A program made the position numbers and the translations under genes. DNA of 64,000 bases from Nocardioides pocheonensis. GTDB lineage: Bacteria; Actinomycetota; Actinomycetes; Propionibacteriales; Nocardioidaceae. The stretch lies in contig NZ_RJSF01000040.1 of the NCBI RefSeq assembly GCF_003725535.1, positions 328,370 through 392,369 on the forward strand. Direction: 5' to 3'. The stretch's first letter is position 1; each line of letters opens with the position of its first letter. The notes beneath the pieces are model-generated. The model saw nothing but the letters and a program-made list of their open reading frames with translations. It made no database searches and was not told the origin of the DNA. This document shows, one piece after another, positions 52,357-63,253 of this stretch.

Positions 52357-52429
52357 GGGGCTGTGGCGCAGCTGGTAGCGCACTTGCATGGCATGCAAGG
52401 GGTCAGGGGTTCGAATCCCCTCAGCTCCA
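52357..52429 (+). tRNA. tRNA-Ala (anticodon GGC)
   Basis: A 73-base tRNA. The acceptor arms GGGGCTG and CAGCTCC pair. The D arm is GCGC...GCGC and the anticodon stem CTTGC/GCAAG encloses ATGGCAT with anticodon GGC at 52390-52392. The T arm AGGGG/CCCCT encloses TTCGAAT. CCA is not encoded. It reads GCC codons. Confidence 0.95.
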
Positions 52430-52438
52430 CACGTGGAG

Positions 52439-52459
52439 GCCGCCTTCGGGCGGCTTTTT
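52439..52459 (+). terminator. rho-independent terminator of tRNA-Ala
   Basis: Perfect six-base stem GCCGCC/GGCGGC with a TTCG tetraloop, followed by TTTTT. Confidence 0.9.
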
Positions 52460-52482
52460 CGTTTCCCGAACCGGCTGCGTGT

Positions 52483-52569
52483 GGGGCGCCGGGCGCAGCT
52501 GGTACCGGCGGTGCTCGTTCTGGGCATGGCATGCAAGGGGTCAGGGGTTTTCGCATCCCCTCAGCTCCA
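52483..52569 (+). pseudogene. degenerate tandem copy of tRNA-Ala
   Basis: This stretch repeats the whole upstream tRNA. It begins with GGGGC, then GGCGCAGCTGGTA as in the D arm, then GCATGGCATGCAAGG with the anticodon region, and GGGGTCAGGGG and CCCCTCAGCTCCAC at the 3' end. About ten extra bases lie between the D arm and anticodon arm, the 5' acceptor no longer pairs fully, and the T loop has changed from TTCGAAT to TTTTCGCAT. It cannot fold as a normal tRNA. Confidence 0.85.
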
Positions 52570-52578
52570 CACGTGGAG

Positions 52579-52599
52579 GCCGCCTTCGGGCGGCTTTTT
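52579..52599 (+). terminator. second copy of the tRNA terminator
   Basis: GCCGCC-TTCG-GGCGGC-TTTTT again, in the same context as the first. The duplication continues on both sides: ACGTGGA before and ACCGGCTGCGT after. The next 210 bases, to the following gene, hold nothing I can identify. Confidence 0.85.
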
Positions 52600-52809
52600 C
52601 GTTTTCCTGAACCGGCTGCGTATGGGGCGAGTGCAGAGGTGGTCGCCCTGGCAGCCGTCGGAGCACTCGACCGACCCTGCGCAGCGAACCCGCCGCGGTG
52701 GGACGCTCGGCCTGTACGCCGCAGCAGCCGGACGCCTAACGTGGAAGGTGGTCAGCACGTCCCCGACCCTGGCGGTCGGCGAGGCGTTGCAGGCGCCGGG
52801 AGGTTCGGG

Positions 52810-53217: not shown

Positions 53218-53399
53218 CGCTCACGGTGAGCGACGCGTGTTCCGCCACCTGCTGAACGATCCGGGCACACCCCGCCGGGTCGTTTGATCCAGCTTGTCCG
53301 GATTCCCGGTTCCGGATGCGCGGGGCCGGTAGCCCGGACGGGTCATGTGCCCGCAGTCGTTCGTCACCCAGCATGAGTTCGGGGAGGGGAGCCCGCGTG

Positions 53400-53411
53400 A
53401 TGCTTCGATGA
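53400..53411 (+). other. micro-ORF with strong SD overlapping the MFS-patatin start
   Basis: GGGGAGGGGAG at 53381-53391 is followed by GTG (53397) and ATG (53400), reading CTT CGA TGA. The TGA at 53409-53411 overlaps the ATG at 53408 as ATGA. The strong ribosome site is 17 bases from 53408, too far to serve it directly. Coupling is possible; chance is not excluded. Confidence 0.3.
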
Positions 53412-56400
53412 GTGCCGCACAGGCCCTGGAGGTGCGTCTGGGCCGCACGCCACCGGGCCGCGTGCTCGCCGTGGCGGCCTTCGGGGCGTTCCTGGCGTTC
53501 CTCGACGCGACCGTGGTCAACGTCGCGTTCCCCGACATCAGGGAGTCGTTCTCCCACAGCTCGGTCAGCGACCTGTCCTGGGTGCTGAACGCCTACAACA
53601 TCGTGTTCGCCTCGTTCCTGATCGTCTGCGGCCGGCTGACCGATCTGCTCGGCCGGCGGCGGATGTTCGCGATCGGCACGGTCGTGTTCACGCTGTCGTC
53701 GGTGGCCTGCGCCGCCGCCGGGTCGCTGGACCTGCTGGTCGCCTTCCGGGTGGTCCAGGCGATCGGGGCGGCCCTGCTCGTGCCGGCCTCGCTCGCCGTC
53801 GTCGTGGAGGCCTTCCCGGAGGACCGGCGCAGCCACGCCGTCGGCCTGTGGGGCGCCTCCGCAGCCCTGGCAGCGGGCCTCGGTCCGCCGATCGGCGGCG
53901 CGCTGGTCGAGCTCGGCGGCTGGCGGCTGGCCTTCCTGGTGAACCTGCCCATCGGCATCCTGGCGATCCTCGGCATCCGGCGCACGCTCGTGGAGAGCCG
54001 CGCGCCGGGACGACGCCGGCTGCCCGACGTACGGGGCGCGGCCCTGCTCGCCGCATGCCTGACCGCCGTCACGCTGGCGATCGTCCAGGGCAACGACTGG
54101 GGCTGGACCAGCGTGCGGGTCGTGGTCGGCTTCGTCGCCGGTGCCGTGCTGCTCGCGGGGTTCCTGATGAGCTCCCGGGTGCACCCGCAGCCTCTGCTCG
54201 ACCCCGCCCTGCTGGGGATCCGGTCGTTCTCGGTCGGCAACGTGCTCACGGTCGTCGCCGGCATGGGTTTCTACGCCTACCTGCTCACGAACATCCTGTG
54301 GCTGCAGTACGTCTGGGGCTACCCGATCTTCAAGGCCGGTCTCGCTCTGGTGCCCGGTGCGCTCGTGGCCGCCGTGGTGGCCGGTGTGCTCGGGGACGTC
54401 GCGCAGAAGATCGGCTACCGATACGTCGTGATCCCGGGCGCGCTCGTCTGGGCGTGCGCCTACCTCTGGTACGCCCGCGTCGTCGATCCGAGCCCCGCGT
54501 TCCTGACCCAGTGGCTCCCCGGTCAGGTCCTCAGCGGCCTCGGTGTCGGTGCGACCCTGCCGATCCTGGGCAGCGCGGCGCTCGCGGCCGTGCCCGGCGG
54601 CCGGTTCGCCACCGCCTCCGCCGTCGTCTCCAGCGCCCGCCAGCTCGGCGGTGCCCTGGGCATCGCGATCCTCGTCGTGGTCATCGGGACGCCGACGCCT
54701 GCCAACACGGTCGACGTGCTGCGCCACGGGTGGATCTTCTGCGCCGCGTGCTTCGCGGTGACGGCGGTCGGTGCGATCCTGCTGCGCGACCGCGCCGGCG
54801 GGCAGACCTCCGAGGAGGAGCGCCCGCGGCAGATCGACGTGCACGTCCCGACCCAGCGGGCGGGGGAGGAGGCTGTCGCCGAGACCCTCCTGCCCGCGCG
54901 TCACGCGGTCGGCGAGACCTTCTTCGACCGGCTCCCTGCGCCCGTCCGTGCCGAGATCGAGGCGCACGGGACGCGCGTGCACCTGGCCGCGGGCGAGGTG
55001 CTGTTCCGGCGGGGTGACGAGGCGGACGCGATGTACCTCGTCCAGTCCGGGCGCCTCGAGGTCGTCGTCGACGAGGTCGCGGTGCGCGAGCTCGGACCCG
55101 GGGCCGAGCTCGGCGAGCTCGCCCTGCTGACCGGCGGGCGCCGGACCGCGGGAGTGCGGGCGCGGCGCGACTCCGTGCTGCTCTCGCTGTCGCGGACCCA
55201 GTTTCTGGGCACGCTCGAGGCGTCCTCGACCGCGGCCCTCGCGGTGGCCACCGCGCTCGCCCAGACGCTGGCGACGGCCCGGCCGCCGGAGCCGACCGGT
55301 GGCGGACCGGCGCGCGTGATCGGCGTGGTCGGCGTGCGGTACGGCGACCCGGTGGGTCCCGTCGGCCACGCCCTCGCCGACCGGCTGGCCCGGCACTGCG
55401 ACGTGCTCGTCTCCCACGGTCTCACCGCGCACGAGCTCGCCGCCGCGGAGCAGGTGCACGAGCGGGTCGTGCTGGTCGCGGACGGCGGCGACGACGACTG
55501 GCGGCGCTCCTGCCTGCGCCAGAGCGACCGCGTGGTGGTCGTCGCCGAGGCCGGACGACCCGCGCCGACCACCTGGGACGGGCCCGCGCAGGCCGATCTC
55601 GTCCTGGTCGGCGAGCCAGGTGCCGCCGAGCTCGCAGCCTGGGCCGAGGTCCTGCGGCCGTGGCAGATCGTGACGACCCGCGCACCGGCGTACGAGATGG
55701 GCGGGCTGGTCGCCGCCCTCGCCGGCCGCTCGCTCGGCCTCGTGCTGGCCGGGGGAGGGGCACGCGCGATGGCCCACATCGGCGTGATCCGCGAGCTCGA
55801 GGAGGCGGGCATCGAGGTGCACCGCATCGCCGGGACGAGCCTCGGATCGGTGGTCGCGGCGGTCCACGCCCTGGGCGTCGACGGTGCGACGCTCGAGCAG
55901 GTGCACCACGACGCGTTCGTCCGGGGCAACCCGATCGGCGACTACACGTTCCCGACGCGGGCGCTCACGAAGGGACGACGGACCCCGGAGTTCCTGCGCC
56001 ACTACCTCGGCTCGGACACCCTGATCGAGGCACTTCCCCGGCAGTTCCGGTGCGTCTCGGTCGACCTGTCGGCACGCGACCTCGTCGTGCACCGGAGCGG
56101 GCTGCTCTGGGAGGCGACGGCGGCGTCCGCGCGTCTGCCGATCCTCACGCCGCCGCTGCGGGTCCAGGACCGGCTGCTGATCGACGGGTGCGTCCTCGAC
56201 AACCTCCCGGTCGGCACCCTGCTCGAGCGCGACGAGGGCCCGCTGGTCGCGGTGAACATCGGCTCGGGGGACCGGGCCCCGTCGCGAGGCGGGCCGCGGA
56301 TGCCGGGCCTCGGCGAGACCCTGTTGCGCCTGATGACGATCGGCGGCCAGGGCACGGCGCAGCGGGCCCGCGAACGCGGCGCCTACGTGATCACACCACC

Positions 56401-56584
56401 GTCGTTGGGAGTGGGGATGATGGAGTTCCACCAGCTCGACCGGATGGTCGAGGCCGGCCGGATGGCCGCACGCGCACTGCTGGAGGCCACCGGCGGCGAC
56501 CTCTTCTCCGCACCCGACCTGAGCGAGGAGACGGCGGCGCGGCCCGCGTCGTCACCGGACCTCCAGGACGCCGGCCAGCCATGA
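53408..56584 (+). CDS. fusion: DHA2-type MFS transporter - cyclic-nucleotide-binding domain - patatin phospholipase
   Basis: A 1058-residue three-part protein. Residues 15-475 form an MFS carrier (FLDATVVNVAFPDI; GRLTDLLGRRRMFAIG, motif A; RVVQAIGAALLVPASLA, motif B/C). Residues about 505-597 form a cyclic-nucleotide-binding fold with the cassette ELGELALLTGGRRTAGV, including the Glu and Arg that usually hold the ribose and phosphate. After a linker, residues about 775-1045 form a patatin domain: oxyanion loop LVLAGGGARAMAH, nucleophile GTSLGS (Ser near 811) and LIDGCVLDNLPV (catalytic Asp). The last two parts resemble neuropathy target esterases. The likely role is cyclic-nucleotide-controlled lysophospholipase activity coupled to transport. 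ATG at 53345 is an alternative start. Confidence 0.85.
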   Translation: MSAAQALEVRLGRTPPGRVLAVAAFGAFLAFLDATVVNVAFPDIRESFSHSSVSDLSWVLNAYNIVFASFLIVCGRLTDLLGRRRMFAIGTVVFTLSSVACAAAGSLDLLVAFRVVQAIGAALLVPASLAVVVEAFPEDRRSHAVGLWGASAALAAGLGPPIGGALVELGGWRLAFLVNLPIGILAILGIRRTLVESRAPGRRRLPDVRGAALLAACLTAVTLAIVQGNDWGWTSVRVVVGFVAGAVLLAGFLMSSRVHPQPLLDPALLGIRSFSVGNVLTVVAGMGFYAYLLTNILWLQYVWGYPIFKAGLALVPGALVAAVVAGVLGDVAQKIGYRYVVIPGALVWACAYLWYARVVDPSPAFLTQWLPGQVLSGLGVGATLPILGSAALAAVPGGRFATASAVVSSARQLGGALGIAILVVVIGTPTPANTVDVLRHGWIFCAACFAVTAVGAILLRDRAGGQTSEEERPRQIDVHVPTQRAGEEAVAETLLPARHAVGETFFDRLPAPVRAEIEAHGTRVHLAAGEVLFRRGDEADAMYLVQSGRLEVVVDEVAVRELGPGAELGELALLTGGRRTAGVRARRDSVLLSLSRTQFLGTLEASSTAALAVATALAQTLATARPPEPTGGGPARVIGVVGVRYGDPVGPVGHALADRLARHCDVLVSHGLTAHELAAAEQVHERVVLVADGGDDDWRRSCLRQSDRVVVVAEAGRPAPTTWDGPAQADLVLVGEPGAAELAAWAEVLRPWQIVTTRAPAYEMGGLVAALAGRSLGLVLAGGGARAMAHIGVIRELEEAGIEVHRIAGTSLGSVVAAVHALGVDGATLEQVHHDAFVRGNPIGDYTFPTRALTKGRRTPEFLRHYLGSDTLIEALPRQFRCVSVDLSARDLVVHRSGLLWEATAASARLPILTPPLRVQDRLLIDGCVLDNLPVGTLLERDEGPLVAVNIGSGDRAPSRGGPRMPGLGETLLRLMTIGGQGTAQRARERGAYVITPPSLGVGMMEFHQLDRMVEAGRMAARALLEATGGDLFSAPDLSEETAARPASSPDLQDAGQP

Positions 56585-58290
56585 CCCAGACCGCCGCCCC
56601 GCAGACTGCGGGAGTGATCGACGGGGCCCGCTCCGCCATCGCCCAGTCGATCCGTCCGCTGGGCGCGGTGTTCCGCAACCCTGCGCTGCGCCGGATGCAG
56701 CTGGCCCTCCTGGGATCGCTGATCGGGGACTGGGCCTACGCCACGGCCGTCGCCGTCTTCGCGTACGGCGTGGGCGGCGCCAAGGCGGTCGGCTTCTACT
56801 TCACCGTGCGGCTGGCCCTGATGGCCGTTGCCTCGCCGTTCTTCGCGACACTCGCCGACCGGATGCCCCGGCGCCTGGTGATGATCGGCTGCGACCTGCT
56901 GCGGTTCGTCCTGGTGTCGGCTGCCGCCGCGTGCCTGTACGTCGGCACGCCCGCCTGGCCGGTCTTCGTGCTCGCGGGCATCGCCTCGGTGTCGGCCGCC
57001 GCGTTCCGCCCGGCCCAGAACGCATGGATGCCGTCGCTCGCGGACTCGACCGAGGAGCTCACTGCGGCGAACGGCGCGTCGAGCACCCTGGAGAGCCTGT
57101 CGTTCTTCATCGGTCCCGCCATCGGCGCCTTCCTGCTGACCCTCACCGACGTGCCCACCGTCTTCATGCTGAACGCCGCCACGTTCCTCTGGTCGGCCCT
57201 GCTGGTCACGGGCATCCACGCGCGGCCCGGCTCGGTCGCCGAGGAGGCGAGCCGCACCGAGGACGACGCCGAGGAGCAGAAGCCCCCGGCCGGCGTGTTG
57301 CGCGAGACCGCGGCCGGCTTCCGGGCGGTGACCTCCGACCGCGACATCCTCATGGTCGGGAGCCTGCTGTGCGCGCAGACGGTGGTCGCCGGAGCCTCCG
57401 CGGTGTTCGGGGTCGTGCTCGCGGTGGAGATCCTCCAGACGGGACCCAAGGGCGTCGGCTACATCGACTCCGCCTTCGGTGTCGGCGCGATCATCGGCGG
57501 GTTCGTGGCGATCGCCCGCGCGGCCCGTCGCAGGCTCGCGCTCGACCTCTCGGTGGGAGTGATCCTCTGGTCGATCCCGCTGCTCGCGCTCTGGGCCTGG
57601 CCGCATCCCGCGACGGTGTTCGCCGCGATCGTGCTCATGGGGTTCGGCAACCCCCTGGTCGACGTCAACTTCGCGACGATCCTCCAGCGGATCACGCCCG
57701 ACGCGGTGCTGGGCCGCGTCTTCGGCACGGTCGAGGGCGCCTGCATCGCGACGATGGCCCTCGGGTCGCTGGTGATGCCGCTGCTGATCAAGGTCTTCGG
57801 GCTGGGTCGCGGTCTCGGCGTGCTCGGTGCGGTGATCGCCGTCCTCGTGCTGCCCTGGCTGCCGCGTGCCTTGCGGCTGGACCGCGACCTCGCCGTCCCG
57901 GCCGGGGTGCCGCTGCTCAACGCGGTCCCGATGTTCGAGCCGCTGACCCCGGCCACGATCGAGAACCTGGCCCGCAAGCTGGTCCGGTTCGAGGTGCCGG
58001 CCGGGTCGGTGATCGTCCGCGAGGGACAGGAGTCGGACCGGTTCTTCGTGGTCGAGTCCGGCGGTGTGTCGGTCAGTCACGGCGACGTGCTCATCCGGCA
58101 CGAGGGCCCGGGGGACTTCTTCGGCGAGATCGGCCTGCTGCGTGACGTGCCGCGGACGGCGACGGTGACGGCGGACACCGACACGGTCCTGCAGGTGCTG
58201 GAGCGCGAGGACTTCCTCGACGCCGTGACCGGGCAGTCGGAGGCTCGCATGGCGGCCGACGCGATCGTGTCCCGGCGGATCGCGCTCTGA
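56581..58290 (+). CDS. MFS transporter with C-terminal cyclic-nucleotide-binding domain
   Basis: A 569-residue protein. Residues 30-440 are an MFS_3/EntS-like carrier (LLGSLIGDWAYATAVAVFAY, FFATLADRMPRRLVMIG, FRPAQNAWMPSLADSTEEL, RITPDAVLGRVFGTVEGA). Residues about 450-560 are a cyclic-nucleotide-binding domain. Its phosphate-binding cassette is complete: DFFGEIGLLRDVPRTATVTA, with FGE and the Arg that contacts the phosphate. The start overlaps the stop of the MFS-patatin gene (ATGA), so both are made together. Two carriers with the same sensory domain in one operon suggest joint control by cAMP or cGMP. The substrate is unknown. Confidence 0.88.
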   Translation: MTQTAAPQTAGVIDGARSAIAQSIRPLGAVFRNPALRRMQLALLGSLIGDWAYATAVAVFAYGVGGAKAVGFYFTVRLALMAVASPFFATLADRMPRRLVMIGCDLLRFVLVSAAAACLYVGTPAWPVFVLAGIASVSAAAFRPAQNAWMPSLADSTEELTAANGASSTLESLSFFIGPAIGAFLLTLTDVPTVFMLNAATFLWSALLVTGIHARPGSVAEEASRTEDDAEEQKPPAGVLRETAAGFRAVTSDRDILMVGSLLCAQTVVAGASAVFGVVLAVEILQTGPKGVGYIDSAFGVGAIIGGFVAIARAARRRLALDLSVGVILWSIPLLALWAWPHPATVFAAIVLMGFGNPLVDVNFATILQRITPDAVLGRVFGTVEGACIATMALGSLVMPLLIKVFGLGRGLGVLGAVIAVLVLPWLPRALRLDRDLAVPAGVPLLNAVPMFEPLTPATIENLARKLVRFEVPAGSVIVREGQESDRFFVVESGGVSVSHGDVLIRHEGPGDFFGEIGLLRDVPRTATVTADTDTVLQVLEREDFLDAVTGQSEARMAADAIVSRRIAL

Positions 58291-58468
58291 ACGTGCCAGA
58301 AGTCGCCGGTGTCTAGTCACATCGGCCAGGAACGGGCGGCATAGCGCCCGAAACCGCACGAGATCGGACAGTCCCTTCTGGTCATTGTTGCGGGTCCGTG
58401 GTGCGAGCAGACTCGCCAGGAGGGATGGGGCCCCTTGCGTCGCCGGCGGGCCTCCGAGGAGGAGCGCC

Positions 58469-59428
58469 ATGTCGCACCACGTCATCGCAGCCGTACGCCG
58501 TCGTCGCACCGCCCTGGGCTGGGCGGCCCTGCTGCTCGCCGTACCGGCCGTCGTCCTGGGCAACCTGTCGCTCGCCTCGGCGAGCGCGCCGGTGACCGCG
58601 ACGATCACGGTGGCGAAGGTGTACTCGCCCAGCATCCCCGGCCCCAGCGACCCGGGCGGTGCTCAGCTCGTGGTCAAGAGCGTGGCCTTCACCGTCGACT
58701 TCACCACCGACGCCCCGCTGTCGAACGGCGGCTCGACCCTCGTCACGCTCACGGTGACCAGCGGGCCCGACAAGGGACTGGTCCTGGGCTCGGCCAGCCT
58801 CCCCGGCGGTCAGCAGTCCGGCAGCGTCGTGGCGGCTGCCGGGATCCCGCACGCCGCGAACAACGTGGGGTTGAAGCTCACCGCGAAGTCGCCGGGCACC
58901 GCACCCGGCACCGCCACGGTCGACGTGCTCAAGACCTTCGTGTCGGCGCCCGGATCCTCGACCCTCACCGGCATCGGCGGCGGTGGTGGCGCGGGCGTGC
59001 CCTGCGACCCGAGCCCGACCGACCAGACCTGCGGCGACCTCCGGCTGCCGAGCTCGTCGAGCGCGACCAGCGGCCTGCTGCTCACCCAGGGCCTCTGCGC
59101 CGGGGCCACCGGGTGCAACCTCACGGCGGGCTCCGTGCTCCAGTGGCTCGCGAACCTCGACCCGAGCGTGGGCCCGACCAACCCGGTCGTGTTCGTGGCC
59201 AAGTGCGACAAGTCGCTGTGCCCCGGCAAGGGCATCAAGACCTACACGGTGAGTGTCGAGAAGAGCGGCACCCACGACGTCTTCCCGTCGCCACCGTGCG
59301 CCGCCAAGGGCGTCGTCGACGACGTGGACCTCGGGTTCTGCACCGACTACGTGCAGAGCACCCGCGACGGTGCCGGAGACGTGCTGCTCTACGTGCTCTT
59401 CGCGAAGGACGCCAAGATCATCTGGTAG
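58469..59428 (+). CDS. secreted protein of unknown function
   Basis: A 319-residue protein. A twin-Arg-free but basic signal peptide (VRRRRTALGWAALLLAVPAV) ends near ASASA at about residue 38. The mature part is Ser/Thr/Gly-rich with beta-like segments (VTATITVAKVYSPS, STLVTLTVTSGPDKGL) and a GIGGGGGAG linker. The C-terminal half has about nine Cys (PCDPSP, TCGD, LCAGATGC, KCDKSLC, PPC, GFC), which likely form disulfides. GAGGAGG precedes the ATG. It lies 178 bases after the MFS-cNBD gene; that gap shows no clear promoter. Its end overlaps the convergent cyclase gene by 11 bases. No family is recognised. Confidence 0.75.
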   Translation: MSHHVIAAVRRRRTALGWAALLLAVPAVVLGNLSLASASAPVTATITVAKVYSPSIPGPSDPGGAQLVVKSVAFTVDFTTDAPLSNGGSTLVTLTVTSGPDKGLVLGSASLPGGQQSGSVVAAAGIPHAANNVGLKLTAKSPGTAPGTATVDVLKTFVSAPGSSTLTGIGGGGGAGVPCDPSPTDQTCGDLRLPSSSSATSGLLLTQGLCAGATGCNLTAGSVLQWLANLDPSVGPTNPVVFVAKCDKSLCPGKGIKTYTVSVEKSGTHDVFPSPPCAAKGVVDDVDLGFCTDYVQSTRDGAGDVLLYVLFAKDAKIIW

Positions 59429-62400
59429 CCAGGTCGCCTTCCGCGTCGAGCAACGGCAGCGCCACCACGCCGAGCTGGCGCAGGGCGGTGGCGCCTCGGT
59501 CGTGCCACTGGGCGGCGTCCTCGACCCCGGCGCGCGCCAGGCCCAGACAGCTCAGCGCGTAGGCGTGGGTGCGGTCCGCGGACCGTCCGGCCTCCACGCC
59601 GCGCCCGAACTCCTCGATCGCATCCTCGACGTGACCGAGTCGGAGCAGCGCGAGGCCGCGGAGGGCCCGGAGGTCCGCCTCGAGGTGCTCCACCGACCCG
59701 GCGGCGAGCAGCTCGTCGGCGCAGTCCACGGCCGCCGCGACCTGACCGCCCAGCAGCATCGCCTCGGCGATCGCCAGGCCCGTGTGCGCGGCCTCGTCGG
59801 GAGCGTCGATCTTCTCGAACAGCGCACGAGCCTCGTCGAGCAGGACCAGCCCGGCCTCCGGGTCCGAGGCCCGTGACCGTGCCCTTCCCTGCTGCCGGAG
59901 CACCAGTGCGACCAGCTCGTCGTCGGACACCGAGCGGGCGGTCGCGAGCGCGTCGTCGAGCAACGGGCCGGCCTCGTCGTACCGGCCCTGGTCGACCAGC
60001 ACCTCGGCGTGGTTGCAGAGCGCGACCCCCTCGTTGTCGGTGTCGCCGAGCCGGCGGTAGAGGTCGGCGGCGCTGCGGAACATCGTCGCTGCCTCCACCC
60101 ACCGGTTGTCCTCGAGCGCCTCGACCGCGAGGTTGTTCGTGCACTGCGCCTGACCGGCGAGGTCGTCGATCTCGACGTACGCCTGCAGCGCCAGCGTGCC
60201 CAGCGTGCGGTAGCTGTCGCGTCCCGATGCCAGGTAGATCCCGTGCAGGGTCGTGTACGCCGGCGCGAGGGTGGCCGGGTCGCCCGACCGCTTCGCCTCC
60301 TCGACCGCCGCCGTGCCCCAGGCGATCGCATCCTCCACGCGGCCCTGGTTGATCTTGCTGATCGCGTAGCGCCGCTGCAGCGCCGACCGCGCGCGGTGGC
60401 TCCCGGCGCCCCGGCGCCCGTCGAACGTCCGGAGCTCGCGGCGGAGCCGTCGCATCGCCTGAGGGAACTTGCGGAGCCGCTGGTCGACCGTCGCCAGCTT
60501 CGTGACGATCCGCGCCGACTCGAACACGTCGTCGCGGAGGTACCGGTGGGCCTGCCGGTAGGCGTCGGCCGCGGCGTCCGTGTGCCCGATCACGAACCAG
60601 CAGTCGCCGAGCGCCTCGAGGACCTGGCCGACCTCGCGGTGGACGACCGCGTCGCGGGGCAGCCGCCGGGACGCCTCGACGGCGCGGGAGAACAGCTCGG
60701 TGGCCTCGGTGTTGGCGTACATCCGGCGGGCCTGGTCGCCCGCCGTGCGGGCGTAGCGGAACGCGCGGTCGTAGCGGCCGGCGTGCAGGAAGTGGAAGGA
60801 CAGCAGCTCCGGGCGGGTGGCGGCGTGGGTGCGCTCCATCGCCAGTCCGACCTGGTCGTGCATCCGCCGTCGGGCCTGGTAGGCCAGGCCCTGGTAGGCG
60901 ACCTCACGGATCAGGCCGTGCCGGAACCGCAGCTCGCTGCCTCGCTCGGCGGGCACCAGGAAGTCCGCCAGCCCGTCGCGCAGCTGCTCGTCGAGCGAGG
61001 TGGCCAGATCGGGCAGCAGCGCGGCGAGCTCGCCGGCCGCGAACTGGCTGCCGAGGACGGCCGCGTGCCGCAGCACGCTGCGCTGCATGGGGGAGAGCTG
61101 GTCGATCTGGGCGGCCACCACCTCCTCGATCGACTCGGGGAGTGCCTCGAGGGCGCCGGTCGGGCCGGTCTGGCTGACCAGCGACTCCAGGAAGAGCGGG
61201 TTGCCACCGGCCTTCTGCGCCAGCGCTGCGAGGGTCGGGCGGGGGAGCGTCTGGCCACCGGCCGCGGACAGCGCCAGCCGCATCGCGTCGTCGGCGCCGA
61301 GCGGGCTGACCCGCAGCTCGAGGGAGTCCAGGTCGTCGCGCGGGATCCAGCCCAGCGGCTGGTCACGCCGGCTCACCACGAGCAGCCAGGGCTGACGGCC
61401 GGCCTCCGCGGCGAGCCCGCTCAGCAGGTCGGCCGAGGCCGGGTCCATGTGCTGGGCGTCGTCGACGGTGACCAGCGTGGGCCCGGTCAGCAGCGCGCGG
61501 AGGAGGCCGAGCACCGTCGACTCGAGGCGGGCCTTGCGGAACTCGTCGTCGAGCTCGGCGGTCGCGGTCGTCTCGGGCACGTCGACGTCGAGGACGTCGC
61601 CGAGGAGCGGGGCCCACTCCGTGAGCTGGGGTGCGACCTCCTCCACGAGCGCAGTGAGCACGAGGGCGGCCGCCTCGGGGGAGCTGTCGTCGGTGAGGCC
61701 GAGCAGGTCGCGGAGCAGCATGCTGAACGCGGCGTACGGCGTGGCTGACTGGTACTCGTCGCAGACGATCCGCTGGACCCGGGTGTCGTCGGCGGACCCG
61801 GCGAGCTCCTGCATCAGCCGGGACTTGCCGATCCCGGGCTCGCCGAGCAGCTGGACGACGCCACCGCGGCCGCTGCTGCGGGCGTCCTCCAGGGCCCGGC
61901 GGAGCAGGGCCATCTCCTCCTCACGGCCGACCAGGACGTTCTCCTGACCTGTCCGGCGCTCGCGGCCGCCGAGGACGGCTCCCACCGAGACGGCGGCCAC
62001 CGGGCGGGCCTTGCCCTTGAGCGTGAACGGGCCGACGTCGGTGGTCTCGAACCGCGTCTCGGAGTGCTCGTACGCCGGGCGGGTGGCCAGCAGCTCGCCG
62101 GGCGATGCCTTGCCCATGATCCGCGCAGCGAGGTTGATCGCGTCGCCCTTGACCGAGTAGGTCCGCCGGAAGGGCGGGCCGAAGTCACCGGAGAAGACAT
62201 GGCCGGTGTTCACGCCGATCCGCAGCGGCAGCCGGCCGGCGTGGTCGAGGATCTGGCGCGCGGTCCGGAGCAGCCGGTCGGCATCGTGCCCGGCCGTCCG
62301 TGGCGCACCCGCGGTCAGCATGATCTTGCCGCCGTCGGCGTTGATGTCGGTCTCGAAGAAGGTCACGCCGTGCGCCGCAGCGGCCTGCGAGACGTTCCTC

Positions 62401-63236
62401 ATGCAGTCGTCCAGCGCGGTGGCCGTCGCCTCAGGCCCCTCCTCGGCGAGCAGCGCGTCGGTGCCGGCGAACTGCACGAAGCCCACCGCGATGGTGCGGT
62501 GCTCCGGCGTCCCGGGGCCGGCGAGGAGGTGCTCCCGGATCGCCACCGACAGCACCTGGGACACGTCGACGCCCGGATCGACCTCCGGGCGGTCGCGGGC
62601 CGGCTCCTCCGCGACGGCAGGCGCACGCCGGAGCAGCCACCCCTGCGGGTCCACGCGATCGCCCAAGGCCGCATCGCCGATCTGCGCGGCAGTCGTCGCG
62701 CTCACCACCACCTGTCCGGCCTGGGCGACCCCCTCGAGCCGGGCGGTCTCGCTCGCCGCCGGCCCGGTCACGAGCAGCTCCCGGTGCAGGTGGGGATCAC
62801 CGACCAGGAAGAAGTCGAACTCGCCGCTGTGGATGCCGACCGACATCCGCAGCCGGATGTTGCCGGCCGACGTCCGCAGCTGCCCGACCTCGCGCAGGCG
62901 TGCCCGCATCCCGTACGCCGCGGCGCAGGCACGTGCGGCATGGCCCTCGCCCGAGAACAGCAGCAGCACCGCGTCGCCGCCCCACTTGACCAGGTCGGCG
63001 TCGAACCGGTCGGCCACGCCGAGCAGGTGCGAGAACGTCGCGTCGAGCGCGTCGCTCATCTCCTCGGCGCCGACGTGCCCCTTCCGGGCCAGTCGCTCCG
63101 TCAGCGCGGTGAAGCCGGAGATGTCGACGAACGCCAGGCTGCCCGCGATCCGACGATGGTGGGCCTCCGGGTCGGTGCCGAGCCACTCCACGACCAGCCG
63201 GGGGACGTAGGGCGCGAGCGCGCGCGACGCGTTCAT
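59418..63236 (-). CDS. tandem class III nucleotide cyclase - AAA ATPase - TPR signalling protein
   Basis: A 1272-residue protein. Cyclase domain 1 (about 30-200) has AFVDISGFTALTERLARKG with metal Asp38 and VKWGGDAVLLLF with Asp88, but its transition-state Asn is missing (GPAASETARLEG). Cyclase domain 2 (about 245-420) has lost the first metal Asp (GFVQFAGTD) yet keeps KGDAINLAARIMGKASPGE with Asn and Arg. The two can thus form one composite site. An ATPase domain follows: Walker A LLGEPGIGKSRLM near residue 468 and Walker B LVTVDDAQHMD. The remaining 600 residues are helical TPR-like repeats. ATG at 63236 gives the family N-terminus LAPYVPRLVVEWL. It is convergent to the two cyclic-nucleotide-binding transporters. 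Confidence 0.9.
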   Translation of the reverse strand: MNASRALAPYVPRLVVEWLGTDPEAHHRRIAGSLAFVDISGFTALTERLARKGHVGAEEMSDALDATFSHLLGVADRFDADLVKWGGDAVLLLFSGEGHAARACAAAYGMRARLREVGQLRTSAGNIRLRMSVGIHSGEFDFFLVGDPHLHRELLVTGPAASETARLEGVAQAGQVVVSATTAAQIGDAALGDRVDPQGWLLRRAPAVAEEPARDRPEVDPGVDVSQVLSVAIREHLLAGPGTPEHRTIAVGFVQFAGTDALLAEEGPEATATALDDCMRNVSQAAAAHGVTFFETDINADGGKIMLTAGAPRTAGHDADRLLRTARQILDHAGRLPLRIGVNTGHVFSGDFGPPFRRTYSVKGDAINLAARIMGKASPGELLATRPAYEHSETRFETTDVGPFTLKGKARPVAAVSVGAVLGGRERRTGQENVLVGREEEMALLRRALEDARSSGRGGVVQLLGEPGIGKSRLMQELAGSADDTRVQRIVCDEYQSATPYAAFSMLLRDLLGLTDDSSPEAAALVLTALVEEVAPQLTEWAPLLGDVLDVDVPETTATAELDDEFRKARLESTVLGLLRALLTGPTLVTVDDAQHMDPASADLLSGLAAEAGRQPWLLVVSRRDQPLGWIPRDDLDSLELRVSPLGADDAMRLALSAAGGQTLPRPTLAALAQKAGGNPLFLESLVSQTGPTGALEALPESIEEVVAAQIDQLSPMQRSVLRHAAVLGSQFAAGELAALLPDLATSLDEQLRDGLADFLVPAERGSELRFRHGLIREVAYQGLAYQARRRMHDQVGLAMERTHAATRPELLSFHFLHAGRYDRAFRYARTAGDQARRMYANTEATELFSRAVEASRRLPRDAVVHREVGQVLEALGDCWFVIGHTDAAADAYRQAHRYLRDDVFESARIVTKLATVDQRLRKFPQAMRRLRRELRTFDGRRGAGSHRARSALQRRYAISKINQGRVEDAIAWGTAAVEEAKRSGDPATLAPAYTTLHGIYLASGRDSYRTLGTLALQAYVEIDDLAGQAQCTNNLAVEALEDNRWVEAATMFRSAADLYRRLGDTDNEGVALCNHAEVLVDQGRYDEAGPLLDDALATARSVSDDELVALVLRQQGRARSRASDPEAGLVLLDEARALFEKIDAPDEAAHTGLAIAEAMLLGGQVAAAVDCADELLAAGSVEHLEADLRALRGLALLRLGHVEDAIEEFGRGVEAGRSADRTHAYALSCLGLARAGVEDAAQWHDRGATALRQLGVVALPLLDAEGDLATR

Positions 63237-63253
63237 GTGCTGCGCACGGCCAT
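63233..63253 (-). other. six-codon micro-ORF overlapping the cyclase start
   Basis: GGGAGGG on the minus strand lies four bases before an ATG at 63253, which reads MAVRST and stops at TGA 63235-63233. That stop overlaps the cyclase ATG at 63236 as ATGA. The cyclase ATG lacks its own Shine-Dalgarno sequence. Confidence 0.35.

Follow-up and report, generated by a model that had tools for sequence, protein, structure and literature searches.

The gene cluster

Four neighbouring genes of the actinomycete Nocardioides pocheonensis, called here G1 to G4, are located in a stretch of 64,000 nucleotides (positions 328,370 to 392,369 of contig NZ_RJSF01000040.1; hereafter the window) that is part of a genome of 4.92 Mb in 50 contigs. 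They bring together a tandem class III nucleotide cyclase, two membrane carriers that each include a cyclic-nucleotide-binding domain (CNB), and a secreted-looking protein. A sequence-only reading of the window had suggested that the cyclase makes the ligand that gates the carriers and the lipid hydrolysis in the first of them, and the four open reading frames (ORFs) were found where it had placed them. The features are the following:

53345 to 56584, + strand: G1, a DHA2/EmrB-type carrier of the major facilitator superfamily (MFS) with a CNB and a patatin-like phospholipase domain (Pfam, TIGR00711, residues)
56581 to 58290, + strand: G2, an MFS carrier (MFS_1/MFS_3) with a C-terminal CNB (Pfam, residues)
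58469 to 59428, + strand: G3, a secreted-looking, beta-rich protein with the C-terminal motif C-T-D...KDAKIIW (low-confidence model, signal-peptide rule)
59418 to 63236, - strand: G4, a tandem class III cyclase (C1-C2, similar to soluble adenylyl cyclase, sAC) with an AAA_16 NTPase and TPR repeats
61962 to 63236, - strand: residues 1-425 of G4, the C1-C2 catalytic pair, with Asp38/Asp88 (C1) and Ser361/Asn368/Arg372 (C2) (AlphaFold2, Foldseek, alignments)

The description of G1 and G2 as overlapping genes for MFS carriers with cyclic-nucleotide cassettes is borne out by Pfam, which detects MFS_1 (1.7e-51), cNMP_binding (2.5e-19) and Patatin (4.9e-23) in G1, and MFS_1 (3.7e-26) and cNMP_binding (2.1e-19) in G2; the motifs that had been quoted are present in the translations, and G1 also scores above the family cut-off of TIGR00711 (efflux_EmrB). 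G2 shows in addition a weak match (23 bits) to TIGR03896, a bacteriocin-type transport-associated protein. The two genes share 4 bp in the sequence ATGA, an overlap that suggests translational coupling. The start of G1 had been placed at 53408; this is a later ATG (residue 22) of an ORF that has an earlier in-frame ATG at 53345, and it is a plausible start, given that the alignments of four full-length homologues begin at residues 25-33.

Pfam likewise confirms that the gene at 59418-63236, which is convergent to the other three, encodes two class III cyclase domains (two Guanylate_cyc stretches, 2.9e-21), an AAA ATPase (AAA_16, 3.4e-22) and TPR repeats (TPR_12, 1e-12), the last two forming a region that follows the cyclase pair. 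Between the carriers and the cyclase a secreted protein had been proposed, and the N-terminus of G3 is indeed signal-peptide-like by a crude rule. G3 matched no Pfam family at E 0.001; it converges with G4, and both genes overlap tail to tail by 11 bp.

The cyclase

Among solved structures, the best sequence matches of G4 are to the soluble adenylyl cyclase ADCY10, with a profile E-value of 1e-35. The AlphaFold2 model of residues 1-425 (pLDDT 93.7, pTM 0.92) gave in Foldseek 24 top matches that are all human sAC, with TM-scores on the query of 0.80-0.85, E-values of 5.3e-29 to 1.9e-25 and 466-475 aligned columns; the first match to a different protein is AC9, at E 1.9e-20. The predicted model and these matches have the two class III domains of G4 packed as a C1-C2 pair within a single chain.

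One active site of G4 looks competent, because 28 of 28 aligned G4-type proteins, that of the window included, have by eye the metal-binding Asp pair in C1 together with the C2 residues Asn and Arg. An inactive cyclase, which would speak against the proposed circuit, is thus not indicated by these residues. We take the substrate-site residues of sAC to be Lys334 and Thr405, and those of its bicarbonate site to be Lys95 and Arg176. By this numbering Ser361 of G4 aligns with Thr405, and Asp301 with Lys334, a lysine (Lys304) being found three residues on; ATP is the likely substrate. Regarding the bicarbonate site, Lys84 is kept, Ala165 (A165) occupies the position of the Arg, and the adjacent R166 varies among homologues. 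Bicarbonate sensing in the manner of sAC was considered and is unsupported, since the Arg of the site is missing; G4 is called sAC-like here for its predicted fold and its catalytic residues, and the term makes no claim of bicarbonate control.

Two other searches concern this protein. Against the NCBIfam model TIGR03903 (TOMM kinase/cyclase fusion) G4 scores 166 bits, below the cut-off of 706. A search of plasmids matched 67 records, mostly rhizobial, with identities of 26-29% among the 15 matches listed; no single place in any of the 67 matched records covered 80% of G4.

The CNB pockets and the patatin domain

The Glu and the Arg of the phosphate-binding cassette are present in G1 (GELALLTGGRRTAG, from the alignment) and in G2 (GEIGLLRDVPRTAT, from the translation). 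Among 23 aligned CNBs, a set that includes G1 and to which G2 does not belong, all were seen by eye to have the Glu and all but two the pocket Arg (21 of 23), the exceptions being L084:14902 and L100. With both residues intact, the CNBs of G1 and G2 are candidate cyclic-nucleotide binders. The patatin-type domain of G1 keeps the Ser in GTSLG (GxSxG) and the Asp in LIDGCVLDN, and it may be regarded as a putative lipid hydrolase; it has DGC where, as we assume, patatins usually have DG[A/G].

Linkage of the cyclase to CNB genes

G4-type proteins were found in 26 of the 197 genomes of a class sample, N. pocheonensis included. CNB domains (PF00027) were mapped in 22 genomes of this sample using the best 150 of 169 CNB domains and 150 of 156 cyclase rows, and the observed numbers of CNB neighbours given below for G4-type and other cyclase loci are lower bounds; all p-values for linkage and co-occurrence were computed without correction for kinship. 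At least 12 of 23 G4-type loci other than that of the window have a CNB within 6 kb, when 0.57 would be expected. Without G128, a genome that was found through G1, the count is at least 11 of 22 loci against 0.56 expected (p 6e-13, ignoring kinship); this 22-locus test also leaves aside the locus of the window, G167, G212, G213, G258 and G277. Other cyclase loci are enriched too, with a CNB nearby at 19 or more of 102 and 3.25 expected, and G4-type loci exceed them (Fisher p 0.0045), distances being measured from the gene at G4-type loci (6 kb) and from the domain at those of the other cyclases (7 kb), with expectations adjusted.

When our own CNB profile was used on flanks reaching about 8 kb, a CNB neighbour was found at 14 of 27 class loci outside N. 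pocheonensis, in eight families, and at seven of the 27 the neighbour is an MFS-CNB protein. The 16 CNB proteins scanned beside class loci comprise seven MFS-CNB, six stand-alone, two CRP-like (L102, L103) and one ABC-CNB protein (L106). In other classes, G4-type proteins were found in 19 genomes of a 198-genome phylum sample (own genome not counted); of their 21 loci 20 were used, G506 being excluded as partial. A CNB lies within 6 kb at five of these 20, against 0.87 expected (p 0.0013), one of them an MFS-CNB protein (L125); the five rest on our own profile, and Pfam, with the best 150 of 209 rows, shows at least four of them. CNB genes are thus found near G4-type cyclases at about 20 times the expectation in the class sample, and less strongly, though significantly, in the other classes.

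Recurrence of the set and co-occurrence of G1 and G4

The sequence-only reading expected the four genes to occur together in other actinobacteria. In its exact form the set is rare, and what recurs is the association of CNB genes with G4-type cyclases. Complete and in the same order, the set was found in the window and in one metagenome-assembled genome of the Propionibacteriales (L008), where the identities are 77%, 78%, 54% and 78% and the genes follow nadD and a tRNA-Ala, as they do in the window. A rearranged version is present in Actinotalea lenta (L009), in the order G2 (-), secreted-looking gene (+), G4 (-), hydrolase gene (+) and G1 (+); its secreted-looking protein gave no significant match to G3 in BLAST, and the C-terminal motif is all that the two share. 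Genome G128 has G4, a relative of G3, G1 and the hydrolase together, with no G2 match within the 40 kb examined. A full-length match to G1 was found in three of 147 genomes of an order sample, own genome included, five candidates being scored per genome.

The samples searched for G4, G1-type genes and the hydrolase at the class level are taken as one genome set, given their equal size and shared handles. At E 1e-60 or better, a cut-off set after viewing the match list, G1-type matches occur in 7 of 25 G4-positive genomes other than N. pocheonensis and in 3 of 171 others (p 2e-5). At E 1e-20 the figures are 8/25 and 7/171 (p 8e-5), and for matches with all three domains in one frame 5/25 and 2/171 (p 4e-4); in G167 and G277 the patatin part alone was found, on short contigs.

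As a side observation on the site itself, the 3' part of the tRNA-Ala of the window (52357-52430) and the stretch that follows it (window 52386-52629) recur about 140 bp downstream with 85-100% identity, perhaps as a decayed duplicate; in L008 the tRNA-Ala also sits between nadD and G1.

The tail-to-tail partner gene

The AlphaFold model of G3 is beta-rich and, with a pLDDT of 57.9, too poor for a further reading or a structure search. The position of the gene was compared at those G4-type loci where the 3' end is intact and followed by 500 bp or more of sequence, 44 in number with that of the window counted. At 30 of these a convergent ORF has its stop from -60 to +100 bp of the G4 stop, and 21 of these 30 partners end in the motif C[VITF]...D[PAVIMW], which is found in 4 of 476 control ORFs; the motif was defined after viewing both sets of loci, and none of its counts is blind. 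Many of the partners start with a signal-peptide-like stretch by the crude rule, while the bodies of the proteins compared are strongly divergent. Among the nine partners without the motif there is one CNB gene (L115). In the reading favoured below G3 would truly belong to the set, and the tail-to-tail partner gene constitutes a new lead.

A hydrolase partner outside the window

At many related loci a hydrolase of the metallo-beta-lactamase fold is encoded beside G4 or a few kb from it (L009, L084, L085, L086, L090, L098, L104, L105, L119 and L123), and in G128 it is near both G1 and G4. Eleven aligned members have an invariant metal motif, HLHWDH or HYHWDH, preceded by S or T in eight and by G in three. 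The best match among solved structures is RNase Z, that to YhfI (6kns) being weak; ten of the 11 match the cyclic nucleotide-degrading phosphodiesterase model NF041851, at E-values up to 1e-5 (best 1.1e-13), and the member from L009 scores 37 bits against a cut-off of 400.

At E 1e-80 the hydrolase is present in 30 of the 197 class genomes, one copy in each, and it is found in 13 of 25 G4-positive genomes other than N. pocheonensis versus 17 of 171 others (p 3e-6). Ten of the 11 rows of the profile come from genomes that were later searched, seven of them in the class sample; these seven are kept within the 13/25 and were left out of the following count. A CNB gene is near the hydrolase in 22 of 23 non-seed genomes, eight of the 23 being from a single genus and four from a second: it is adjacent in 21 and about 3.7 kb away in one (G195), G166 being the exception. 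The same adjacency is seen in two non-seed genomes outside the class sample, G136, where the hydrolase is beside G1, and G486. In the seed genomes G207 and G221 the hydrolase adjoins G4, and the stretch examined has no CNB. Ten genomes of other classes have weaker relatives (E 1e-62 to 1e-75), for which a place beside G4 is not the rule. The gene company of this hydrolase suggests that it acts on a cyclic nucleotide, and its assignment as a phosphodiesterase is plausible.

Two other arrangements that include this hydrolase were observed. In ten genomes of families f23 and f21 (L149-L158) it adjoins a CNB gene, with 41-110 bp between the matched domains and no G4-type match in the stretches examined; these could be a minimal CNB-phosphodiesterase pair. 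In G154 the hydrolase shares one contig (C166) with G1 and two MFS-CNB genes, and G4 is near the end of another contig.

Interpretation and alternatives

The explanation that we favour, with a probability of roughly 0.55, is that G1 to G4 work as a local cyclic-nucleotide circuit, probably employing cyclic AMP (cAMP), that acts on membrane carriers. According to this proposal, G4 would make a cyclic nucleotide, most likely cAMP, upon a signal sensed by its AAA/TPR part; the product would bind the CNBs of G1 and G2 and alter the transport by these coupled carriers of their presumptive cargo, and the patatin-type hydrolase fused to G1 would likewise change in activity. The signal would be ended, in many relatives, by the phosphodiesterase-like enzyme of the cluster, and G3 could perhaps be a surface target or a sensed component. 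A wider proposal, which is possible but tentative, is that a cassette widespread in actinobacteria, composed of an sAC-like cyclase, CNB-gated carriers (one of them fused to a phospholipase), a dedicated phosphodiesterase and a secreted tail-to-tail partner, acts as a private loop controlling export or membrane-lipid remodelling. If this were true, MFS carriers would be direct, non-transcriptional targets of cAMP. The sequence-only reading is thus supported in part: the association of the genes holds, and the gating of transport and lipid hydrolysis by the patatin domain are predictions. The hydrolase partner, the recurrent tail-to-tail gene, the resemblance of G4 to human sAC and the mycobacterial MFS-CNB-patatin proteins were absent from that reading.

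Several observations weigh against the circuit. Asp301 is found at the position of Lys334 of sAC, with Lys304 three residues on, which makes the nucleotide chosen by G4 less certain. At 13 of 27 class loci, and at 15 of 20 in other classes, no CNB neighbour was detected, for some of them because the contig ends. G1 and G4 are on separate contigs in G154, G172, G245, G258 and G310, so that for these five genomes the finding is one of co-occurrence; G136 has G1 and no G4 match in about 40 kb, and three genomes of family f7 have G1-type matches without a G4 match. At E 1e-40 a search for the hydrolase gave no match in N. pocheonensis or in G007, of the same family. We know of no experiment on the gating of an MFS carrier by a CNB. 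Finally, the N. pocheonensis genome has, beyond the locus, six other CNB domains, one of which belongs to an MFS-CNB protein. It also has five further genes for cyclases, two with a CNB gene next to them; with all these present, the pool that G1 and G2 sense may be a global one.

This last point leads to the main alternative, which we regard as unlikely but deserving of serious attention: the clustering would be generic, and G1 and G2 would respond, as CRP does, to cAMP from every cyclase of the cell, G4 being one input without a private circuit. Bacterial cAMP has been studied mostly through CRP-type transcription factors. The enrichment of CNB genes beside other cyclases (the 19 or more of 102 loci mentioned above) is in agreement with this alternative, as are the presence of CRP-like genes among the neighbours of G4-type cyclases and the seven PF00211 matches, eight CNBs and two further cyclase-CNB gene pairs of the N. 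pocheonensis genome. However, G4-type loci are more enriched in CNB genes than those of other cyclases, and of the 16 CNB neighbours scanned only two are CRP-like, the others being seven MFS, one ABC and six stand-alone proteins. The two further pairs (L135 on contig C23 and L136 on C43) each consist of a cyclase gene directly adjoining a gene for a CNB protein; a third MFS-CNB protein was detected with our own profiles at C23:30000-36500 (L134), with no G4-type match in those 6.5 kb.

It is improbable that the CNBs are ligand-free scaffolds, or bind another molecule, and that the clustering reflects shared regulation. The loss of the pocket Arg in L084:14902 and L100 would fit such a role, but G1 and G2 retain both the Glu and the Arg of the cassette, and their neighbours are a cyclase and often a phosphodiesterase-like enzyme.

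An antiphage defence similar to Pycsar, in which a cyclic pyrimidine made by the tandem cyclase would activate the CNB membrane effectors, is disfavoured and seems quite improbable. An excerpt of PMC11224242 describes two cyclase domains in clade A PycC and a CNB in PycTIR effectors, and PADLOC gives weak matches of the window to PycC and PycTIR. Nevertheless, the PycC matches to G4 are of 21-28 bits with partial coverage, in a library without curated cut-offs, and do not qualify G4 as a PycC; those to PycTIR are confined to the CNBs of G1 and G2, both of which are MFS carriers and do not qualify as Pycsar effectors. Besides, the best fold matches of G4 are to sAC, and in L008 the set occupies the position after nadD and tRNA-Ala that it has in the window, where no search aimed at other defence genes was made.

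That four unrelated genes lie together by chance is very improbable, although the complete set in its exact form was seen in the window and L008 alone and in L009 is rearranged. The CNB enrichment, judged by the density of CNB domains and by the loci of other cyclases, the co-occurrence of G1 and G4, and the rearranged set of A. lenta led to the rejection of chance. A recurrent cluster with a cyclase next to CNB-bearing transporters, and often with a likely phosphodiesterase, would allow one to test whether cyclic nucleotides control transport directly.

Comparison with known systems

No description of this cluster was found in the literature searched, which consisted of open-licence papers. 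A related arrangement is that of Pycsar (PycC with PycTM or PycTIR), where, according to an excerpt of PMC11224242, cyclase and CNB genes form pairs; a cyclase gene likewise adjoins CNB effector genes here, but Pycsar uses cyclic pyrimidines and pore or TIR effectors, and the PADLOC scores of the window are weak. The partner hydrolase recalls the atypical class-II phosphodiesterases (Rv1339, CpdA, YhfI), which have a metallo-beta-lactamase fold and the motif [T/S]HXHXDH (excerpt of PMC9293780): it has HLHWDH or HYHWDH and weak matches to NF041851 and YhfI. It differs from them in that the member scored is far below the NF041851 cut-off, RNase Z models match it equally well or better, and it is clustered with CNB genes.

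Regarding G1, we take the mycobacterial proteins Rv3239c and Rv3728 to be MFS-CNB-patatin proteins with the same domain order. Two genomes of family f7, genus g23, which is probably Mycobacterium, have proteins with the three-domain order of G1 and 45-46% identity over the CNB-patatin part; in a third a CNB-patatin match of 39% was found, in a frame that lacks the MFS part. In contrast with the window, none of these three genomes is among the G4-positive ones. Rv3728 appears among lipolytic enzymes, as an efflux-system membrane protein, in an excerpt of PMC10865251. The cluster would give a context for these mycobacterial proteins.

With human sAC (ADCY10), G4 has in common the tandem C1-C2 fold, and presumably also an NTPase and a TPR-like C-terminal part. 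The differences are an identity of 20-21% in the structural alignments, A165 and Asp301 at the positions of the bicarbonate-site Arg and of Lys334, and the linkage of G4 to CNB carriers. The cluster would supply bacterial relatives of human sAC that could be used as models of this enzyme.

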